Shown: positions 10,513-62,059 of the stretch, one piece after another
Numbering within the stretch: position 1 is the first letter of the stretch
Layout: every line of letters begins with the position of its first letter
Assembly (NCBI RefSeq): GCF_000227725.2
Contig: NZ_MU255056.1
Location: 2,045,193-2,109,192 of the forward strand
DNA length: 64,000 bases
Origin: Thiorhodospira sibirica ATCC 700588
GTDB taxonomy: Bacteria > Pseudomonadota > Gammaproteobacteria > Ectothiorhodospirales > Ectothiorhodospiraceae
Reading direction: 5' to 3'
The notes under the pieces: model-generated
Seen by the model: the letters and a program-made list of their open reading frames with translations, nothing else
Databases searched by the model: none
What the model was told of the DNA's origin: nothing
Made by a program: the position numbers and the translations under genes

Positions 10513-10932
10513 ATGATTTATCAGCTTGTTTATGTCAGTGAATACACAGGCGACTCGCCTGAGAGCGATTTGCACGACATTCTGGCGGCATCTCGGCGTT
10601 TTAATCCACAACACGGCATCACTGGATTGTTGCTATTTGTGGGCGGCAGCTTCATCCAGGTCTTGGAGGGTGACGACGAGGCCAAGGTGCGGGCGCTGTA
10701 TGAACGTATTGCGCTGGATCCGCGTCATGCCCGCCTGGATGTTTTGCTCGATTACACGCTCCCCAAGCGGCTTTTTCCTGACTGGAGCATGGCGTGGATG
10801 CCAATTTCTGAGACGGAGTTTTGCGCCCTGGCACATATTCAGCGCTGTGATTTTGCAACGCTGTCACAGCTGGATAACAATATTGTCAGTAATATATTGC
10901 TCAATTTTGCAGAGGCAAAGCTGGATGGCTGA
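10513..10932 (+). CDS. BLUF-domain blue-light sensor
   Basis: A 139-residue short BLUF protein that would bind FAD and respond to blue light. Key residues are present: Tyr7 in QLVYVS, Asn31 in RRFNPQHGITG, Gln49 in GSFIQVLEG, and Trp91/Met93 in FPDWSMAW. There is no fused effector domain, so signalling would run through a partner. The stop codon overlaps the start of the downstream agmatine deiminase gene by 8 bases, pointing to translational coupling. The 260 bases upstream contain no other gene. Family call firm; output unknown. Confidence 0.92.
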   Translation: MIYQLVYVSEYTGDSPESDLHDILAASRRFNPQHGITGLLLFVGGSFIQVLEGDDEAKVRALYERIALDPRHARLDVLLDYTLPKRLFPDWSMAWMPISETEFCALAHIQRCDFATLSQLDNNIVSNILLNFAEAKLDG

Positions 10933-14890: not shown

Positions 14891-15305
14891 TGCGGCTGTT
14901 CCTAAATTTTTTGCGCGTACATAAAAGTTAATGAATATGTGCGCTGCACGGCGACACGGTGTGACCGTGACTCCTGCGGCTATGGTGTCTTTTGTTTGTC
15001 GTGCTTATTGAGGTCAGGCGCGCAACGCCGTCGTTACAGCGTGCGCTCCCCTTTATGCTTGCTCATGATCGATGCGAATGTTTCATAAGTATAGCCCAAG
15101 CGCTGCGTGATCGCGGATCAGTGTGCATTGTTCAGCAGCACGCCCAAATGCAAACCCAAACAACCCGTTTTTAAAGTCGCGCAGGCATTGCGGTGAGCCT
15201 GTTTGAATGTCTTTCGGCACTGCCCTTTCATGGCGCGATGGCCCTGTTCGCAGCGGGCCTTCGCTTGCACCTGTCTGATGAATCCTCTACCATTGCGCGG
15301 CCTTT
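14891..15305. other. Intergenic region between divergent genes
   Basis: This 415-base region separates the minus-strand ATP-grasp gene from the cobalamin riboswitch. It must hold promoters for both directions. No convincing -35/-10 pair, coding frame or RNA family was identified by eye; short open frames here lack start signals and coding bias. Confidence 0.5.
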
Positions 15306-15490
15306 TGGTGCCTTGGGGTGCATTTTTTGCCTCCGAGGTAAACGGGAAGCCGGTATGCATAGCATGCTCAAGCCGGCGCTGCCCCCGCAACGGTAGGCGA
15401 GTTAACGCAAGGCAATAGACCACTGTGCATCCGCATGGGAAGGTGTCTTGACGGGGAATGATTCCGCTCGCAAGCCCGGAGACCGGCCAA
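15306..15490 (+). promoter_or_regulatory. Cobalamin (adenosylcobalamin) riboswitch
   Basis: The leader contains the conserved blocks of the class in order: GGTGCC (15308), GGGAAGCCGGT (15344), the B12 box GCCGGCGCTGCCCCCGCAAC near 15372-15391, then CCACTG, TGGGAAGG and AAGCCCGGAGACCGGCC near 15472-15488. It precedes btuB by about 135 bases. In this family B12 binding represses translation or transcription of uptake genes, so the downstream btuB-cobS-btuCD set should be repressed by B12. The 5' limit is approximate. Confidence 0.93.
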
Positions 15491-15623
15491 AGGTCACAAC
15501 CCGATATTGCGGCGGGCGATGCGGCGGTATGGTCATGTTTTTCCACGCCTATCCCTCCTTTCCCCCCTGCAAGCCATTCTTAAATTTTAGATCCGTGCGG
15601 GCGGCACGGAGGATAGCTTAATC

Positions 15624-17450
15624 ATGCCTGGCGTATTTTTACTTCTCCCCTTGGTGGTGTTTCTCCCTGCGGCGCTGTATGCGCAAACCCCGGCACTGGA
15701 TACTGTTGTGGTAACGGCCAGCCGGGTGGCGCAAACCACCGATGAAACCCTGGCCTCGGTAACTGTCATTACCCGTGAAGACATTGAACGCTGGCAGGCG
15801 CCATCCGTTCCCGATATTTTGCGCCGTCAACCCGGTTTGCAGGTTCACAGCGCTGGCGGACGTGGCAAAAGCACCTCGGTGTTCATGCGCGGCACCAATT
15901 CCGACCATGTGCTGGTGCTGATTGATGGTATCAAGGTGGGCTCGGCGACGCTGGGCACCACAGCCTTGCAGGATCTCCCGGTTGAAGCTATTGAGCGCAT
16001 TGAGATTGTGCGCGGGCCGCGTTCCAGTCTGTATGGCTCGGAGGCCCTGGGCGGGGTGATTCAGATTTTTACCCGTAAAGGCGGCGGCGCCTTGCGCCCG
16101 TATGTCAGTCTGGGTGGGGGCAGTTATCGCACCGTGGAAGGGGCTGCGGGCTTAAGCGGCGGCGGGGATCAGGGCTGGTTTAATCTGGGTGTCAACGGCG
16201 TTGATACGCAAGGCTTTGATGCCTGTCGCGGCGAGGCCGCCACGGCCTTTGCCGGATGCTTTGCCGATGAGCCGGATCGGGATGGTTATACCCAGCTTTC
16301 CGGTTCGCTGCGCGCAGGCTACCACGTCTCGGATGCACTCTCGCTGGAGGCTTTCAGTCTGGTGACCCGCTCGGAGAATGAATTTGATGGCAGTTTTCAG
16401 AATGAGTCTGCAGACCGCCAGCAGATTTATGGCACGGTGGTGCGCTATGCGCCATTGAGTCTGTGGCAGATGACCCTGAGCCTCGGACACAGCCTGGATG
16501 CCTCAAAAAATTTCAAGGACGGGGTGTTTTCCAGCCGCTTTGAAACCCGCCGCGACACCCTTTCCTGGCAAAACGATCTGGAAGTAGGCAGTGCCACGCT
16601 GCTGACGCTGGGCGCCGATTATCTCAATGACCGGATTAGCGGCTCCACCGAGTATGCCCACACTTCCCGCGATAATCTCGGCCTGTTTGCCCAATATCTG
16701 GGCTACTGGGAGCGCGTGGATCTGCAAGTAGCGCTGCGCCATGATGATAACCAGCAATTTGGACATGAAAATACCGGTAGCCTGGCGCTGGGCTATGCAC
16801 TCACTGACACGCTGCGAGCGATCGGCTCCTATGGCACGGCCTTCAAGGCCCCCAGTTTTAATGCCCTGTATTTTCCCGGCTATGGTAATCCCGATCTTAA
16901 ACCGGAAAGCTCGCGTACCCTGGAGGCCGGGCTTCGTGGCCCCTTGGCCGGAGGGCAGTGGTCGGTGAGTCTGTATGAGAGCCGCATTGATGATCTGATT
17001 GCCCATGATGCCGCACGCAGTTTGCCCGCCAATATTCACGAAGCGGTGATTCGCGGTGCCGAGCTGGATTGGCAGGGGACGCTGGAGGCCTGGCAGGTCT
17101 ACGCCGGGGTGAGTCTGCTTGATCCACAAAATCGCGCCCAGCCGCATCGTGGCAATTTACTGCCGCGCCGTGCCGAGCACAGCCTGAACATGGACGTGGA
17201 GCGCGCCTATGGGCCGTATCTTCTGGGTGCGAGTGTGCTGGCCCAAGGGCGGCGCTTTGATGATGTCGCCAACAGTCGCCGCCTGGATGCCTTTGTCACG
17301 ATGGATCTGCGCGCTGAATACCGGATCAGCCCCGATCTGCGCCTGCAACTGCGGCTGGAAAACCTCTTTGATGAAGACTACGAAACCGCCAGCTTTTATA
17401 ACCAGCCCGGACGCAGCGCCTACCTGAGTCTGCGTTATCAGCCGCAGTAG
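15624..17450 (+). CDS. btuB: TonB-dependent vitamin B12 receptor
   Basis: Outer-membrane transporter importing cobalamins with energy from TonB. The 608-residue protein starts with a signal peptide ending near AALYAQ, then the TonB box DTVVVTASR. The plug domain has [31 protein letters not shown] and [19 protein letters not shown]. The C-terminal beta-barrel ends in YLSLRYQPQ, lacking the terminal aromatic often found. The call as BtuB rather than another siderophore receptor rests on the riboswitch upstream and cobS/btuCD downstream, as well as BtuB-like size. The start is preceded by GGAGGATAGCTTAATC, a good ribosome-binding site. Confidence 0.93.
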
Positions 17451-36616: not shown

Positions 36617-37618
36617 TCAGAGCAGCGTCACGCGATTGCGTCCGCTTTGTTTGGATTGGTACAGCGCGCGATCAGCGCGGGCGATGATGGCGTCTGCGGT
36701 GTCATCTGGGATATAGAGGGTGACACCAAAGCTGGCGGTGGCGTGCTTGATCTCACCGAAGCGGTGATTGGCGATTTTCTGCCGCAAGTCCTCAGCTAAC
36801 CGGCGGGCGTTATCGGCATCGGTGTCCTGACACAACAAGATGAATTCTTCGCCACCCCAGCGACCGAAGATATCCGATTGACGTATCCGTTGGGCAACGA
36901 GATTGGTAAATTCTTGCAGCACGCGATCACCCGTCAGATGACCAAAACCATCATTGACACGCTTAAAGTGATCAATATCAAACAAAATCAGCGCGAAGCG
37001 GGATTGATACCGTGCAGCGCGATGCAATTCATGCTCAAGCACCTCATCGATTTTTGAACGGTTGGCGATGCCGGTCAATTTGTCGGTAGTAGCCAGATAG
37101 GTAATCTTTTGCATCGCCGTCTGCAGTTCCTGGGTGCGTTGTTCGACCAGTCGTTGCAATACCTGATTGCGCGCTTCAAGTTCCTTGATGGGGTAGGATT
37201 CGTCGGCGCCATGGGCGGTCGATGGAAAGGACAGGTGCACATATTCAATCAGCCAGCGTGTGCCGTGTTTGGCAAAAACCAGTGAAATACGCAGATGATT
37301 GAGCGTAAGCGCCTGGTCTGCGATGGTTGTGCGCAAGCTCAGCGCGCAGGTAACGATACCGACAGATGCGGAGATAACCGCAATATGAGATGCGCGGATT
37401 TGGTACTCGATCGGGTTGGGTGCCTGCTCGAAATCCCGGGCATAGATGCGGCGAAAATCATCTTCTTTACATGCAAACTCATCTAATCCCGTCCCCACCC
37501 CCTGCACGGATGGGCTGAGAAAAGAACACGCCCGCACGTGGTCGCGTTGCAAGAAATGGGTATCGAAATACTCAGCGGTCGTCTCCCATAATTGCTGTTC
37601 AATGGTTTTGTCGGTCAT
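36617..37618 (-). CDS. GGDEF diguanylate cyclase with SnoaL/NTF2-like N-terminal domain
   Basis: A 333-residue soluble protein. The first 145 residues look like an NTF2/SnoaL-like fold (WETTAEYFDTHFLQ, then beta-rich sequence), sometimes used for small-molecule sensing. A coiled coil at about 148-175 links to the GGDEF domain. The active site is WGGEEFILL and an inhibitory I-site RQSD lies five residues before it, so the enzyme should make c-di-GMP and be product-inhibited. No EAL domain. Stands alone between gcr and nuoN. Confidence 0.9.
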   Translation of the reverse strand: MTDKTIEQQLWETTAEYFDTHFLQRDHVRACSFLSPSVQGVGTGLDEFACKEDDFRRIYARDFEQAPNPIEYQIRASHIAVISASVGIVTCALSLRTTIADQALTLNHLRISLVFAKHGTRWLIEYVHLSFPSTAHGADESYPIKELEARNQVLQRLVEQRTQELQTAMQKITYLATTDKLTGIANRSKIDEVLEHELHRAARYQSRFALILFDIDHFKRVNDGFGHLTGDRVLQEFTNLVAQRIRQSDIFGRWGGEEFILLCQDTDADNARRLAEDLRQKIANHRFGEIKHATASFGVTLYIPDDTADAIIARADRALYQSKQSGRNRVTLL

Positions 37619-57912: not shown

Positions 57913-58359
57913 ATGCCGTATGCCATAAGGTTGACCGGGCAGACCTTGCCCGGCGTAGCAACGCCAGAAGCTGCGGCGCGTCTGGCAGCCTTGTTCAAAT
58001 TGCCCACAGAAAAAGCCGCCGCGCTGTTGGGTGGACAGCCCATCACCATCAAAACCGGCCTGGATGAAGCGACGGCGGAAAAATACCTCGCCGCCCTGGC
58101 CAAGGCCGGAGTTGCGGCCACACGTCTGTCGGATGAACATCCGCCGACAACCGACACGCCATCACCTCAAGCCGCTGCACCGGACTGGACCATCGCCCCG
58201 GTCGGCGTAATTTTGAGCGAATCCAAGGCGGTTGCTCCCCCGGCGGTGGATCTGTCCGGTCTGAGTCTGGCAGAACCGGGGGCCATTCTGGCCGAGCCTA
58301 CGGAGATCCCGGAACCCAAGATTGATATCAGCGGCCTGAAGGTGTTACCCGAGCGCTGA
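57913..58359 (+). CDS. Small acidic protein of unknown function
   Basis: A 148-residue protein 18 bases after tex with GGAGG just before its ATG. The N-terminal 70 residues form a compact alpha/beta unit (VATPEAAARLAALFKLPTEK, LLGGQPITIKTGLDEATAEK) of the kind seen as an N-terminal module in several proteobacterial membrane proteins. The tail is Pro/Ala-rich with degenerate repeats (VDLSGLSLAEPGAIL, then IDISGLKVLPER). No enzyme motif. The stop is immediately adjacent to the stop of the convergent cobalamin-binding gene. Confidence 0.78.
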   Translation: MPYAIRLTGQTLPGVATPEAAARLAALFKLPTEKAAALLGGQPITIKTGLDEATAEKYLAALAKAGVAATRLSDEHPPTTDTPSPQAAAPDWTIAPVGVILSESKAVAPPAVDLSGLSLAEPGAILAEPTEIPEPKIDISGLKVLPER

Positions 58360-59424
58360 TCAGTGCCATTGATGGGCCAGCGCGACGGCATCGCTGGCAC
58401 TGGCCGCACATCCGTGCGCACCAACCACCGATACCAGCGCGGGGATGCGCGAGATAATCTGTCCGCCGACCATGATGGGAATATCCGGCTGTTTGCGGCG
58501 GATCAGCGAGATGGTGCGCTTCAGGGTGGTTAACGAGAAGGGCAAGGTCGTGGATAAGGCAATGAAATTCGGTCGGGTTTCTTCCATCATGCTCACCAGA
58601 CTGTCTGCCGGGGTGTTGGCACCGAGAAAAATCGTTGACCAGCCGTGGATTTCAAGAATATCGGCCACCATGCGCGCCCCGAGTTCGTGGTATTCGTTGG
58701 GCGAAGAGGCAACCAGGGCGGTGCCTCGCTGACCGTTTTCAAAGGCCAGTTGCAGATAAAAATTGGCCATAATGCGATTAGCCACGCTGGTCGCCAGATG
58801 TTCGCGGGCCACCGACACCTTCCCCATCTCCCATAAAGCGCCCACCCGATACATCACCGGCTGAATCACATCCAGATAAAAATGCTCCAGCTCCTGCGGG
58901 TTATGTACCAGGGATTCTGCCATCTGCATAGCCCCGTTGACCTCACCGGCCAAAATCAGCTCAAGAAACTGCTCGCCTGCCGGTGACAGTGACTCGCTGA
59001 TACAATCCAGCGGTTCACGCGCTTGGCGCATATGTTCTTCATGGCGGGATTTCATCCAGTCATACAACTGCACCAAGGGGGTCGCGGCCTGGGTGGGCAA
59101 CTGGCTACGCACCGCCGCAATCCAGGCATCAAAGGCCGCCGGGAAATAATCCGCGCTAAAGCCATTGGCAATGTCATTGCGATAGCGCCAGGGCAGGGTC
59201 TCTGACAACAGCTCAAAGGTTTCCAGCTCCAGCGCCTCGGACACCACCAGACCGTGATTACGCTGTTCCTCTTGCATCAGCGGAAAGGAATCCCCAATCC
59301 ACGCCTGAATCTGCGGGTTCGCCTTCATCTGCTGATCCACGGCATTGAGCAGACAGGGCAAGTTATTGCGGTACATGGAAGCAACTTCTTTGGGGATTGG
59401 AATCTGTAAAGCATTATCAGACAT
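58360..59424 (-). CDS. Cobalamin-binding sensor protein with CarH-like W-x9-EH motif
   Basis: A 354-residue soluble protein. Residues about 1-150 are helical and of unknown type, perhaps RsbRD-like (WIGDSFPLMQEEQRNHGLVV). Residues about 155-225 form the helical cap of B12-binding domains, with Trp198 and Glu208-His209 in LWEMGKVSVAREHLAT, the W-x9-EH signature of CarH/LitR photoreceptors. The Rossmann part has NEYHELG (His246 as the expected lower cobalt ligand, E-x-H-x-x-G) and IMVGGQIISR. There is no MerR-type DNA-binding domain, so output is by another route. It lies 86 bases after a diguanylate cyclase gene on the same strand. Light sensing is inferred from the motif. Confidence 0.88.
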   Translation of the reverse strand: MSDNALQIPIPKEVASMYRNNLPCLLNAVDQQMKANPQIQAWIGDSFPLMQEEQRNHGLVVSEALELETFELLSETLPWRYRNDIANGFSADYFPAAFDAWIAAVRSQLPTQAATPLVQLYDWMKSRHEEHMRQAREPLDCISESLSPAGEQFLELILAGEVNGAMQMAESLVHNPQELEHFYLDVIQPVMYRVGALWEMGKVSVAREHLATSVANRIMANFYLQLAFENGQRGTALVASSPNEYHELGARMVADILEIHGWSTIFLGANTPADSLVSMMEETRPNFIALSTTLPFSLTTLKRTISLIRRKQPDIPIMVGGQIISRIPALVSVVGAHGCAASASDAVALAHQWH

Positions 59425-59509
59425 GGCAGCTTCTCACGGGTCAACATGTGGCGACACCTTCCCGGTGTGGTTTTCTGGGAGCAGCATCTTCCAGATGCCA
59501 CCACGGGGC

Positions 59510-60460
59510 TTAGCCAGCGGCTTGATATAACACGGTCTGATCACGTCCGCTGCGCTTGGCTTGATACAGGGCATTATCGGCGCGCTTGAGAATGCTGGCC
59601 GGGGTATCCTGGGGCTGTTTTTGGGTGACGCCCAAACTCATGGTGATATGGTGCGCTGTACCGGGTACCTGAATCAAGCGGCTCATGGTACGGATTTTTT
59701 CGGCAAAGATAAAAGCCCCCTGCTGATCGGTGGCGGGCAACAGAATCACAAATTCTTCGCCGCCGATGCGGGCGGGCAGGTCCTTTTCACGGCTTCCCTG
59801 GCTTAAGGTACGGCCCACCGCCTTGAGCACCTCATCGCCGATGTCGTGGCCATAGGTATCATTGATGGCTTTGAAATGATCAATGTCCAGCATCACCAGG
59901 GAAAAGGGATTGGAAGAACGCCGATCTTGCAGGTATTCGTTTAAATGATGCATCAGCGAGCGCCGGTTGGCCAGCTCGGTGAGGGTATCCAGATGCAGCA
60001 GTTTGTTAATGGTGACGTTAGCCTGTTCCAGGGCTTTTTGCTTGCGCCGCATCTCGCGCACGGTATTGACTAGCTGATTGTTCAGACCGGAGATTTTAAG
60101 CATCAGTTCGGCGGTATTTTCGCCGTCACTGCTAAGCGCCATCCACAACAGGCAATGGCTGGAATCCTCCGCAGACAAGACCTGACAATCCACCGGCATA
60201 TTCAGGCCATTCGCCCCCAGCGATACACGTCCCTGCATTTGCATCCCCTGTAACAGTTGCATCAGCAACAGTCCTCCGGCACGATCCAGATAATCGGCCA
60301 GACGCTCTCCGACCGGGTTGGATTCACTGCCCAGCAAAACGCACAGCCCCGGATTACAGGCCTGGATCACCCCATCCTGATCCAGCAACACCAAGGCAAT
60401 GGCTGGAGTGCGGAGCAGATGGTTGAGCACAGCGGCAGACTGTTGTGGACTAAGGTTCAT
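59510..60460 (-). CDS. PAS-GGDEF diguanylate cyclase
   Basis: A 316-residue soluble cyclase. Residues about 10-115 form a PAS-like sensor (TPAIALVLLDQDGVIQACNP), followed by a coiled coil (about 120-155, VREMRRKQKALEQANVTINK) and the GGDEF domain with active site RIGGEEFVILLP. An I-site REKD lies five residues upstream, so feedback inhibition by c-di-GMP is expected. It is flanked on the same strand by a BamD-like lipoprotein 17 bases upstream and the cobalamin-binding sensor downstream, implying a shared transcript and possibly a shared pathway. Confidence 0.93.
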   Translation of the reverse strand: MNLSPQQSAAVLNHLLRTPAIALVLLDQDGVIQACNPGLCVLLGSESNPVGERLADYLDRAGGLLLMQLLQGMQMQGRVSLGANGLNMPVDCQVLSAEDSSHCLLWMALSSDGENTAELMLKISGLNNQLVNTVREMRRKQKALEQANVTINKLLHLDTLTELANRRSLMHHLNEYLQDRRSSNPFSLVMLDIDHFKAINDTYGHDIGDEVLKAVGRTLSQGSREKDLPARIGGEEFVILLPATDQQGAFIFAEKIRTMSRLIQVPGTAHHITMSLGVTQKQPQDTPASILKRADNALYQAKRSGRDQTVLYQAAG

Positions 60461-60476
60461 TGCAGCAGACGATATC

Positions 60477-61226
60477 CTACGGCAATGCGTTTACAAGGTT
60501 ATGATCAGGGTATTGGGCTTCAAGGGTTTGGCGCACCTGCTGTGCCTGGACGGCCTGATCAAGCTGCAGATAGCTTTTAAACATCAGGGCCAGGGCATAG
60601 GGATGTGCCTGGGTACGACTGAAATGCTCGCTGATATAGCGAGCCCGTGCCAAGGCCTCGGCATAGCGCTGTTCGGCAAAACGGGCATTTGCCAGTCCCA
60701 ACTCGGCCCGTGCCAGCGCCTCACGCAGCTCAAGCAAATAAGGCGGCAATTGTTCGCGATAGCGGGACTCGGGAAAGCGCGTGGCCAATTCACGAAATTG
60801 GCCGAACAGGCGGCGAATGGTGACAATTTCGACGGCATCTTGCTGGGGGGTAGCCAGCCTGGAATGCTGCCATTGTGTGTAATCGGCTACCGCATACAGA
60901 TACAGCGCATAATCGGCGTGGGATGCGTCAGGCAGCTTGCGCACCGCCCCCGCCTGAGCCAGGGCAATGTCAAATGCACCGGCTTGCAGGCAGACATAGG
61001 CGGTTTGCAGGCGCAGCGCCGGGCTTAGCTGAGGGCTGGTTTCCAAACGCGCCAAAGCCTGCGCGGCCTGCGCGCAATCTTCTTGCGCCAGCGCTTGACT
61101 TAGTTGATGGCTCAGCGTGGCTTCATCCGGCACAGTACGCTTTGGCGAAGTGCTGCATGCCGTGAACGCAAAGATGCAGATCAGGCTGATTAACAAGGGG
61201 TTTGCGGTCGATCGCACAACGGACAT
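60477..61226 (-). CDS. BamD-like TPR lipoprotein
   Basis: A 249-residue lipoprotein: the lipobox is FTAC with lipidated Cys24. It then has helical TPR-like repeats (LARLETSPQLSPALRLQTAY, FRELATRFPESRYREQLPPY, ARYISEHFSRTQAHPYALAL) arranged as in BamD/YfiO. It is smaller and more divergent than the essential BamD, so it may be a paralogue working with the neighbouring type II secretion genes or in outer-membrane assembly. It follows gspN by 51 bases on the same strand. Confidence 0.78.
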   Translation of the reverse strand: MSVVRSTANPLLISLICIFAFTACSTSPKRTVPDEATLSHQLSQALAQEDCAQAAQALARLETSPQLSPALRLQTAYVCLQAGAFDIALAQAGAVRKLPDASHADYALYLYAVADYTQWQHSRLATPQQDAVEIVTIRRLFGQFRELATRFPESRYREQLPPYLLELREALARAELGLANARFAEQRYAEALARARYISEHFSRTQAHPYALALMFKSYLQLDQAVQAQQVRQTLEAQYPDHNLVNALP

Positions 61227-61276
61227 GAGGGTCTTGATCCATAACAGCAGGGTTTATGGGATGGCGTAGCAGGCGC

Positions 61277-62059
61277 TCAATGATACGGCCCAAGCTGCCC
61301 GGAATAGCGCAATTGATACTGCCCATCAGGGCCTTGGGATGCCAGCAGGCGCAGAACAGCATGTAATTCGCGGCTCATTGATTGGTTGGGCTCAAGATCA
61401 ATCTGCACCTCATAGCGATCATCCGGATACCACACCATCACGCCCTGCACCCCCAGCGCCCCGTTTTGATCACGCACCACCGCGTGCAAGGTGCCATCAT
61501 CTTCGGTATGTACATCCGCGCGCACATCGCCCAGCGGCTGAGGGCGCGGAAACCCTGCGGCGGCATTCAACCAGCCCAGCACGCCTTCGGCCTCAATCAG
61601 ACGGGCGGCATAATTCCAGCGAAGCCGAGGCGCATCCAGCAGCATCTGCCCCTCCAGAATCAAGGGGATGGTCGCTACGGCGCGAGCCACCTCGGCGGCG
61701 GGCAATTCAGCGCGCACCGTGTAAACATCCACTGAGCGAAATCTAAAGGCAAGGGTACCATTGCCTTGGCCTTGCGGATGGCGGAAACTCACGGCATAAC
61801 GGGCCTGGGCGCGCCACAGCTGGCTGGGCTGGAATTGCCACTGCACCTGCTGCACCTGCAGTTGGCGTATCCTGAGGTGAGTGGCCTGACCGGACCACAG
61901 AGTTCCGGATAATCCCTGCGCCTCGATCGTTTCTGGTATCCAGCCGCGCTCAGCGGCGATTCCGTACACCGTAGTCGCCGGCAAGGTGAACAACAAAAAC
62001 AACAGATAGCTGGCCAGACCCAGTAGCAGATACAGCAGTATTTGCCGTGAATATTTCAT
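61277..62059 (-). CDS. gspN: Type II secretion system protein N
   Basis: Bitopic inner-membrane protein of 260 residues with a membrane helix at about 8-30 (LLYLLLGLASYLLFLLFTLP), then PATTVYGIAAERGW and a periplasmic beta-rich domain including GTLWSGQATHLRI, characteristic of GspN. GspN is present only in some T2SS clusters and is not essential in all. Its start overlaps gspM by 4 bases (ATGA). Confidence 0.88.
   Translation of the reverse strand: MKYSRQILLYLLLGLASYLLFLLFTLPATTVYGIAAERGWIPETIEAQGLSGTLWSGQATHLRIRQLQVQQVQWQFQPSQLWRAQARYAVSFRHPQGQGNGTLAFRFRSVDVYTVRAELPAAEVARAVATIPLILEGQMLLDAPRLRWNYAARLIEAEGVLGWLNAAAGFPRPQPLGDVRADVHTEDDGTLHAVVRDQNGALGVQGVMVWYPDDRYEVQIDLEPNQSMSRELHAVLRLLASQGPDGQYQLRYSGQLGPYH

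Follow-up and report, generated by a model that had tools for sequence, protein, structure and literature searches.

Photocobilins such as SasPcob and AbDPcob hold a CarH-type B12 domain and a photoglobin in one polypeptide, and the photocobilin literature describes B12 domains both before and after the globin. Light releases their adenosyl group, moves the Glu/His helix of the B12 cap, and raises cyclase activity more than 10-fold (PMC10979010). AbDPcob has its own diguanylate cyclase, which is activated by light; isolated photocobilins likewise modulate a cyclase domain that is separate from them, and light activation of the cyclase has been seen both in cis and in trans (PMC10979010). CarH and LitR share an adenosylcobalamin (AdoCbl) site with W-x9-EH and x-x-x-H, and they carry a MerR DNA-binding domain.

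In the AerR/PpaA–CrtJ/PpsR and AppA–PpsR systems, a B12-type domain without a DNA-binding domain acts in trans on a partner made of PAS plus a long helix; for AerR/PpaA, this partner is the transcription factor CrtJ/PpsR (PAS-PAS-HTH). The SCHIC domain of AppA, AerR-like in structure, binds the long helix that follows the N-terminal PAS of PpsR, and AerR has been modelled on CrtJ in the same way (PMC9144470). A cyclase can also be controlled through such a helix: SiaD is activated via its helical stalk by SiaC, a separate protein from the same operon (PMC8457831), which is not a B12 protein.

We analyzed 64,000 nucleotides of the Thiorhodospira sibirica ATCC 700588 genome (the window), in which a gene for a B12 sensor protein of 354 amino acids (58360..59424, minus strand) adjoins one for a diguanylate cyclase of 316 amino acids (59510..60460, minus strand). 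Both open reading frames were confirmed. The reading order on the minus strand is the PAS-GGDEF cyclase gene, a gap of 85 nt (59425..59509), and the B12 protein gene. The gap has a terminator-like site on the opposite strand only; since none lies on the same strand between the two genes, their co-transcription is plausible. A search of 58200-61400 for a sigma-70 consensus promoter found none, and the two genes may be transcribed together, possibly from the secretion operon. The type II secretion genes placed upstream by the initial annotation were found: the L, M, and N genes precede a BamD-like lipoprotein gene, whose end is separated from the cyclase start by 16 nt (60461-60476). With these genes upstream, the pair might be linked to secretion through control by c-di-GMP.

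A B12 uptake operon and a BLUF protein had also been offered as context. Both are real, but they lie ~43 and ~48 kb from the pair, too far away to serve as evidence. A cobalamin riboswitch (15289-15505; 101 bits) stands directly 5′ of a BtuB-like TonB receptor gene (15624-17450) and B12 uptake/assembly genes, and the BLUF domain is encoded at 10519-10794. The genome has two BLUF domains, the second in a 1146-aa open frame (G000:C4:2931146-2931412). Another diguanylate cyclase in the window (36617-37618) has a SnoaL-like N-terminal domain.

The B12 sensor consists of a predicted photoglobin (residues ~12-135), a four-helix B12 cap (151-225), and a Rossmann B12 domain (235-353). Pfam recognized only the cap and the Rossmann domain above cut-off (B12-binding_2, residues 151-220, 6e-15; B12-binding, residues 235-347, 9e-21), and it detected no DNA-binding domain or HTH, as the initial annotation had stated. 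The CarH-type AdoCbl site spans residues 198-250 (58675..58833, minus strand) and includes W198, E208-H209, and N243-E244-Y245-H246-E247-L248-G249. Both motifs claimed earlier are therefore in place, the W-x9-EH of Trp198, Glu208, and His209 and the E-x-H-x-x-G of E244, His246, and G249. These six residues were invariant in an alignment of 28 family sequences, the other 27 of which share just 27-39% identity with the window protein.

The published light signature consists of GxxW, EH, GxxH, and GxxxP (PMC11796333; SignatureFinder). Three of the four elements occur in the sensor (G195-W198, E208-H209, and G268-P272); the fourth reads NxxH, with Asn243 at the Gly position in the window and likewise in nearly all of the family. 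The residue after W198 is Glu199 and not His, which rules out the bis-His light state of CarH, a state likewise absent from SasPcob, AbDPcob, and CtMerR. The sensor thus differs from CarH and LitR in lacking both the MerR domain and the His after Trp, and its NCBIfam CarH score was 67.8 bits against a cut-off of 400. The nearest PDB match was SasPcob (8j2x/8j2w; E 3e-24). An AlphaFold2 model of the whole sensor had a pLDDT of 93.4, and the nearest solved structures were SasPcob (8j2x), CtMerR, AbDPcob (the cyclase–photocobilin fusion), and CarH-type photoreceptors; this fold search covered the model as a whole, and its matches are dominated by the B12 domain. By sequence, the B12 domain belongs with those of CarH and the photocobilins and has the residues predicted to bind AdoCbl in the CarH manner.

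The ~150 N-terminal residues (1-150; 58975..59424, minus strand) had been described as a helical domain that could not be named; profile comparison identifies them as a divergent photoglobin. The domain alone had no significant match in Pfam or among PDB sequences, nor did it match the solved photoglobin significantly in a direct comparison, and the link runs through a sister family of B12 proteins of the same class. The profile of the window family matched the N-terminal domains of the sister family over 115 columns (probability 96, E 2.2e-9), whereas reversed, column-shuffled, and unrelated helical control profiles gave E values of at least 0.086. The sister-family domain in turn matched the globin domains of SasPcob and AbDPcob (E 1e-7 and 6e-7) and allophycocyanins (E 3e-6), and in one sister-family member, the Pfam Phycobilisome domain scored slightly under cut-off. 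On this two-step profile chain with clean controls, the domain is assigned to the phycobiliprotein-like globins of photocobilins, here placed N-terminal to the B12 domain. Its W79 and H57 are conserved.

The cyclase comprises a PAS fold (residues ~5-109), one long helix (114-156), and a GGDEF domain (157-311; PF00990, E 3e-46). The initial annotation had called its active and inhibitory sites intact, and we found the GGEEF active site (233-237), which fits the GG[DE]EF pattern of diguanylate cyclases, and the RxxD I-site (R224/D227), all invariant in 24 aligned neighbour cyclases. Its nearest structures were PAS-GGDEF-EAL proteins, LOV-activated cyclases, and SiaD in complex with SiaC, which activates it. 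SiaD was also its best NCBIfam match, at 173.6 bits, which misses the cut-off of 290.

The post-PAS signalling helix (residues 112-156; 59993..60127, minus strand) is the proposed docking site. Mean conservation in partner proteins was 0.53 for the helix versus 0.38 for the PAS, and the motif LNNELxxLxRELxKKNxxL is common to cyclase and kinase partners. Because the same PAS and helix are kept across different outputs, with the helix the better conserved and its motif recurring, these comparisons suggest that what the sensor would read is the helix.

The initial annotation had proposed a survey of the co-occurrence of the two genes, and the pairing proved to be conserved. Searched with the B12 protein family as the sole query, GTDB genomes yielded 32 loci. 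These belong to purple sulfur bacteria, several deltaproteobacterial lineages, Thermodesulfobacterium, Thermodesulfovibrio, Spirochaetes, Elusimicrobia, Ozemobacter, a Bacillota MAG, and Kosmotogaceae (names as in the records). With further genomes added, we obtained 41 non-redundant family loci besides the window, from about eight phyla. A PAS-helix protein is encoded immediately downstream in 35 of these 41 loci, often with a 4-base overlap, and 28 of the 35 are cyclases. The script-based count missed two PAS-helix partners, L078 (frameshifted) and L087, which were added by hand. The loci outside the 35 are L051, four spirochaete loci, and L087, which has a PAS-helix with a Cys-rich tail. 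In the spirochaete family members L106-L109, a histidine kinase lies upstream and the PAS-helix partner is absent downstream.

In the loci with long flanks, the PAS-helix profile matched 30 of 30 immediately downstream ORFs and none of the 429 others; the profile was built from 22 of those 30, leaving eight as independent matches. GGDEF domains were found in 25 of the 30 downstream ORFs versus 9 of 429 elsewhere. The distance matrices of sensor and cyclase were correlated (r 0.92, a value that includes shared species history; 0 of 2000 permutations). A functional pairing of sensor and cyclase is therefore strongly supported. Two apparent fusions of the pair, L062 (751 aa) and L074 (542 aa), were rejected as they appear to be read-through of the upstream frame. 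In Thermodesulfobacterium thermophilum (L061:5965-7573), both genes are in pieces, from decay or sequencing error.

The window pair has its gene order reversed relative to the family: in no other member seen does a PAS-GGDEF cyclase lie upstream of the sensor while a partner is missing downstream, and the pair could thus have been rewired. In both trees, the window protein falls closer to the deltaproteobacterial group than to the purple sulfur group of its family, from which we infer that the two genes probably moved together by horizontal transfer.

The output behind the PAS-helix is exchanged among loci, being a cyclase, a histidine kinase, a PP2C phosphatase, a LuxR regulator, or none. Non-cyclase partners with the same PAS-helix start carry a SpoIIE phosphatase (L060), a LuxR regulator (L075), a histidine kinase (L085), or a Cys-rich tail (L062 and L087), and the L053 partner is a PAS-helix without any output domain. 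In the sister family, a histidine kinase is the commonest partner. The PAS-helix profile matched these kinases with E values of 1e-4 to 1e-8, mostly over the helix alone; the resemblance is suggestive, coiled coils being prone to match easily.

The Cys-rich C-terminal tail (CAYCKKIRD...HGYCPDC) recurs as the sole output after a PAS-helix (L062:4602-5228, L035:2544-3524, L101:2140-2745, and L102:2142-2750). At L096, L104, L098-L102, and L117, B12 proteins with W-x9-EH and without a detected globin domain also adjoin PAS-helix proteins, which are cyclases, kinases, or Cys-rich-tail proteins.

The mechanism that we consider rather probable is that the two genes form a B12 switch: photolysis of AdoCbl would alter the docking of the sensor on the post-PAS helix of the cyclase. 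The four-helix cap and the Rossmann domain would hold AdoCbl between them, His246 being its lower ligand and Trp198, Glu208, and His209 surrounding the adenosyl group. Green light would break the Co–C bond, the adenosyl group would depart, and the cap helix with Glu208 and His209 would shift. The sensor is envisaged as sitting on the long helix of the neighbouring cyclase dimer, so that altered docking would change the pairing of the GGDEF domains and turn c-di-GMP synthesis up or down; the direction of this effect is not predictable. Adenosyl-dependent docking on the helix is proposed by analogy, combining the precedents of AppA/PpsR, SiaC/SiaD, and the photocobilins.

Several features of the host favour light as the signal. 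Its genome has photosynthetic reaction-centre L/M genes and both AdoCbl adenosyltransferases; its two other B12-binding matches are BchE-like and MetH-like by length and sequence, and no further AerR-like protein was found in it. The light- or B12-controlled c-di-GMP switch suggested initially stands as far as the cyclase pairing and the CarH/photocobilin type of the B12 domain are concerned, and light is plausible as its signal. Several points speak against the photolysis switch: of the 26 carrier genomes tested, 17 have no reaction-centre genes, the signature reads NxxH, Glu199 follows the Trp, and the pair is reversed. Purple sulfur bacteria, moreover, photosynthesize without oxygen. Oxygen has been reported as necessary for full CarH monomerisation (PMC11796333), and this need too counts against the switch.

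The same two-gene module could respond instead to AdoCbl availability or to redox state (the cobalt oxidation state, or oxygen). This is a serious rival to light, although we hold it to be doubtful. It would suit the carriers without reaction-centre genes, many of which are sulfate reducers, syntrophs, or thermophiles and many anaerobes, and the loss of the bilin motif together with the scarcity of canonical heme oxygenase, found in only 4 of 26 carrier genomes. One PpaA/AerR-like protein that lacks a cobalamin domain nonetheless works in redox control (PMC10734443). The adenosyl pocket, however, belongs to the light-responsive type, which has been validated on four other proteins (PMC11796333), and the host is itself equipped with reaction-centre genes. 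AdoCbl is also intrinsically photolabile, which would make an AdoCbl sensor light-responsive in any illuminated cell.

That the globin binds a bilin or another linear tetrapyrrole, making the protein a full dual-chromophore photocobilin acting in trans, we regard as very unlikely. The homology of the domain to photoglobins would favour it, and W79 aligns with the SasPcob Trp that contacts both chromophores. The photoglobin bilin-binding motif CXQD (PMC10151467) is nevertheless lost, the window reading MQEE and the family mostly M-x-x-N. At the position of the bilin-binding Asp270 (PMC10979010), the window keeps an acidic residue, Glu53, and most of the family has Asn; AbDPcob, in which this Asp is replaced, binds biliverdin weakly (PMC10979010). 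The host also lacks a canonical heme oxygenase (PF01126). With site and enzyme both missing, a bilin is unlikely, and the globin more probably serves structure or docking than holds a second chromophore. As for a metabolic corrinoid carrier of the methyltransferase type with the cyclase as a chance neighbour, generic matches to methionine synthase and methylamine corrinoid proteins would agree with it, but they are weaker than the photocobilin and CarH matches, and an adjacency kept across about eight phyla with an invariant W-x9-EH pocket makes it extremely unlikely.

The individual parts of the photolysis switch are of known kinds, and it is their arrangement that differs. The globin is N-terminal in the window protein and C-terminal in SasPcob and AbDPcob, the CXQD/Asp bilin site of the photocobilins is absent, and the adjacent gene encodes the cyclase as a protein of its own, with a PAS domain. 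The neighbour is a PAS-GGDEF protein and not a PAS-PAS-HTH regulator as for AerR/PpaA; AerR itself has no photoglobin, and its homologues in purple relatives lack G-x-x-W-x9-EH. An N-terminal bilin-less photoglobin with a separate PAS-cyclase and swappable outputs was not found in the literature searched, a scope outside which the founding photoglobin paper lies. That paper, Schneider et al. 2022, is said to discuss gene neighbourhoods.

We tentatively suggest that the family represents widespread plug-in B12 receptors, with a bilin-less globin, which would dock in trans on a conserved post-PAS helix while the outputs are swapped; in dark-living anaerobes, they would sense AdoCbl or redox state instead of light. 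The question then arises of what signal a CarH-type pocket would register in non-photosynthetic strict anaerobes. If the proposal is true, the natural output swaps would make the docking rule directly testable, and the pair would offer a two-part green-light tool for c-di-GMP and kinases. The locus would then be a clean natural case, from a photosynthetic bacterium, of a signalling enzyme switched by a B12 sensor on another polypeptide.
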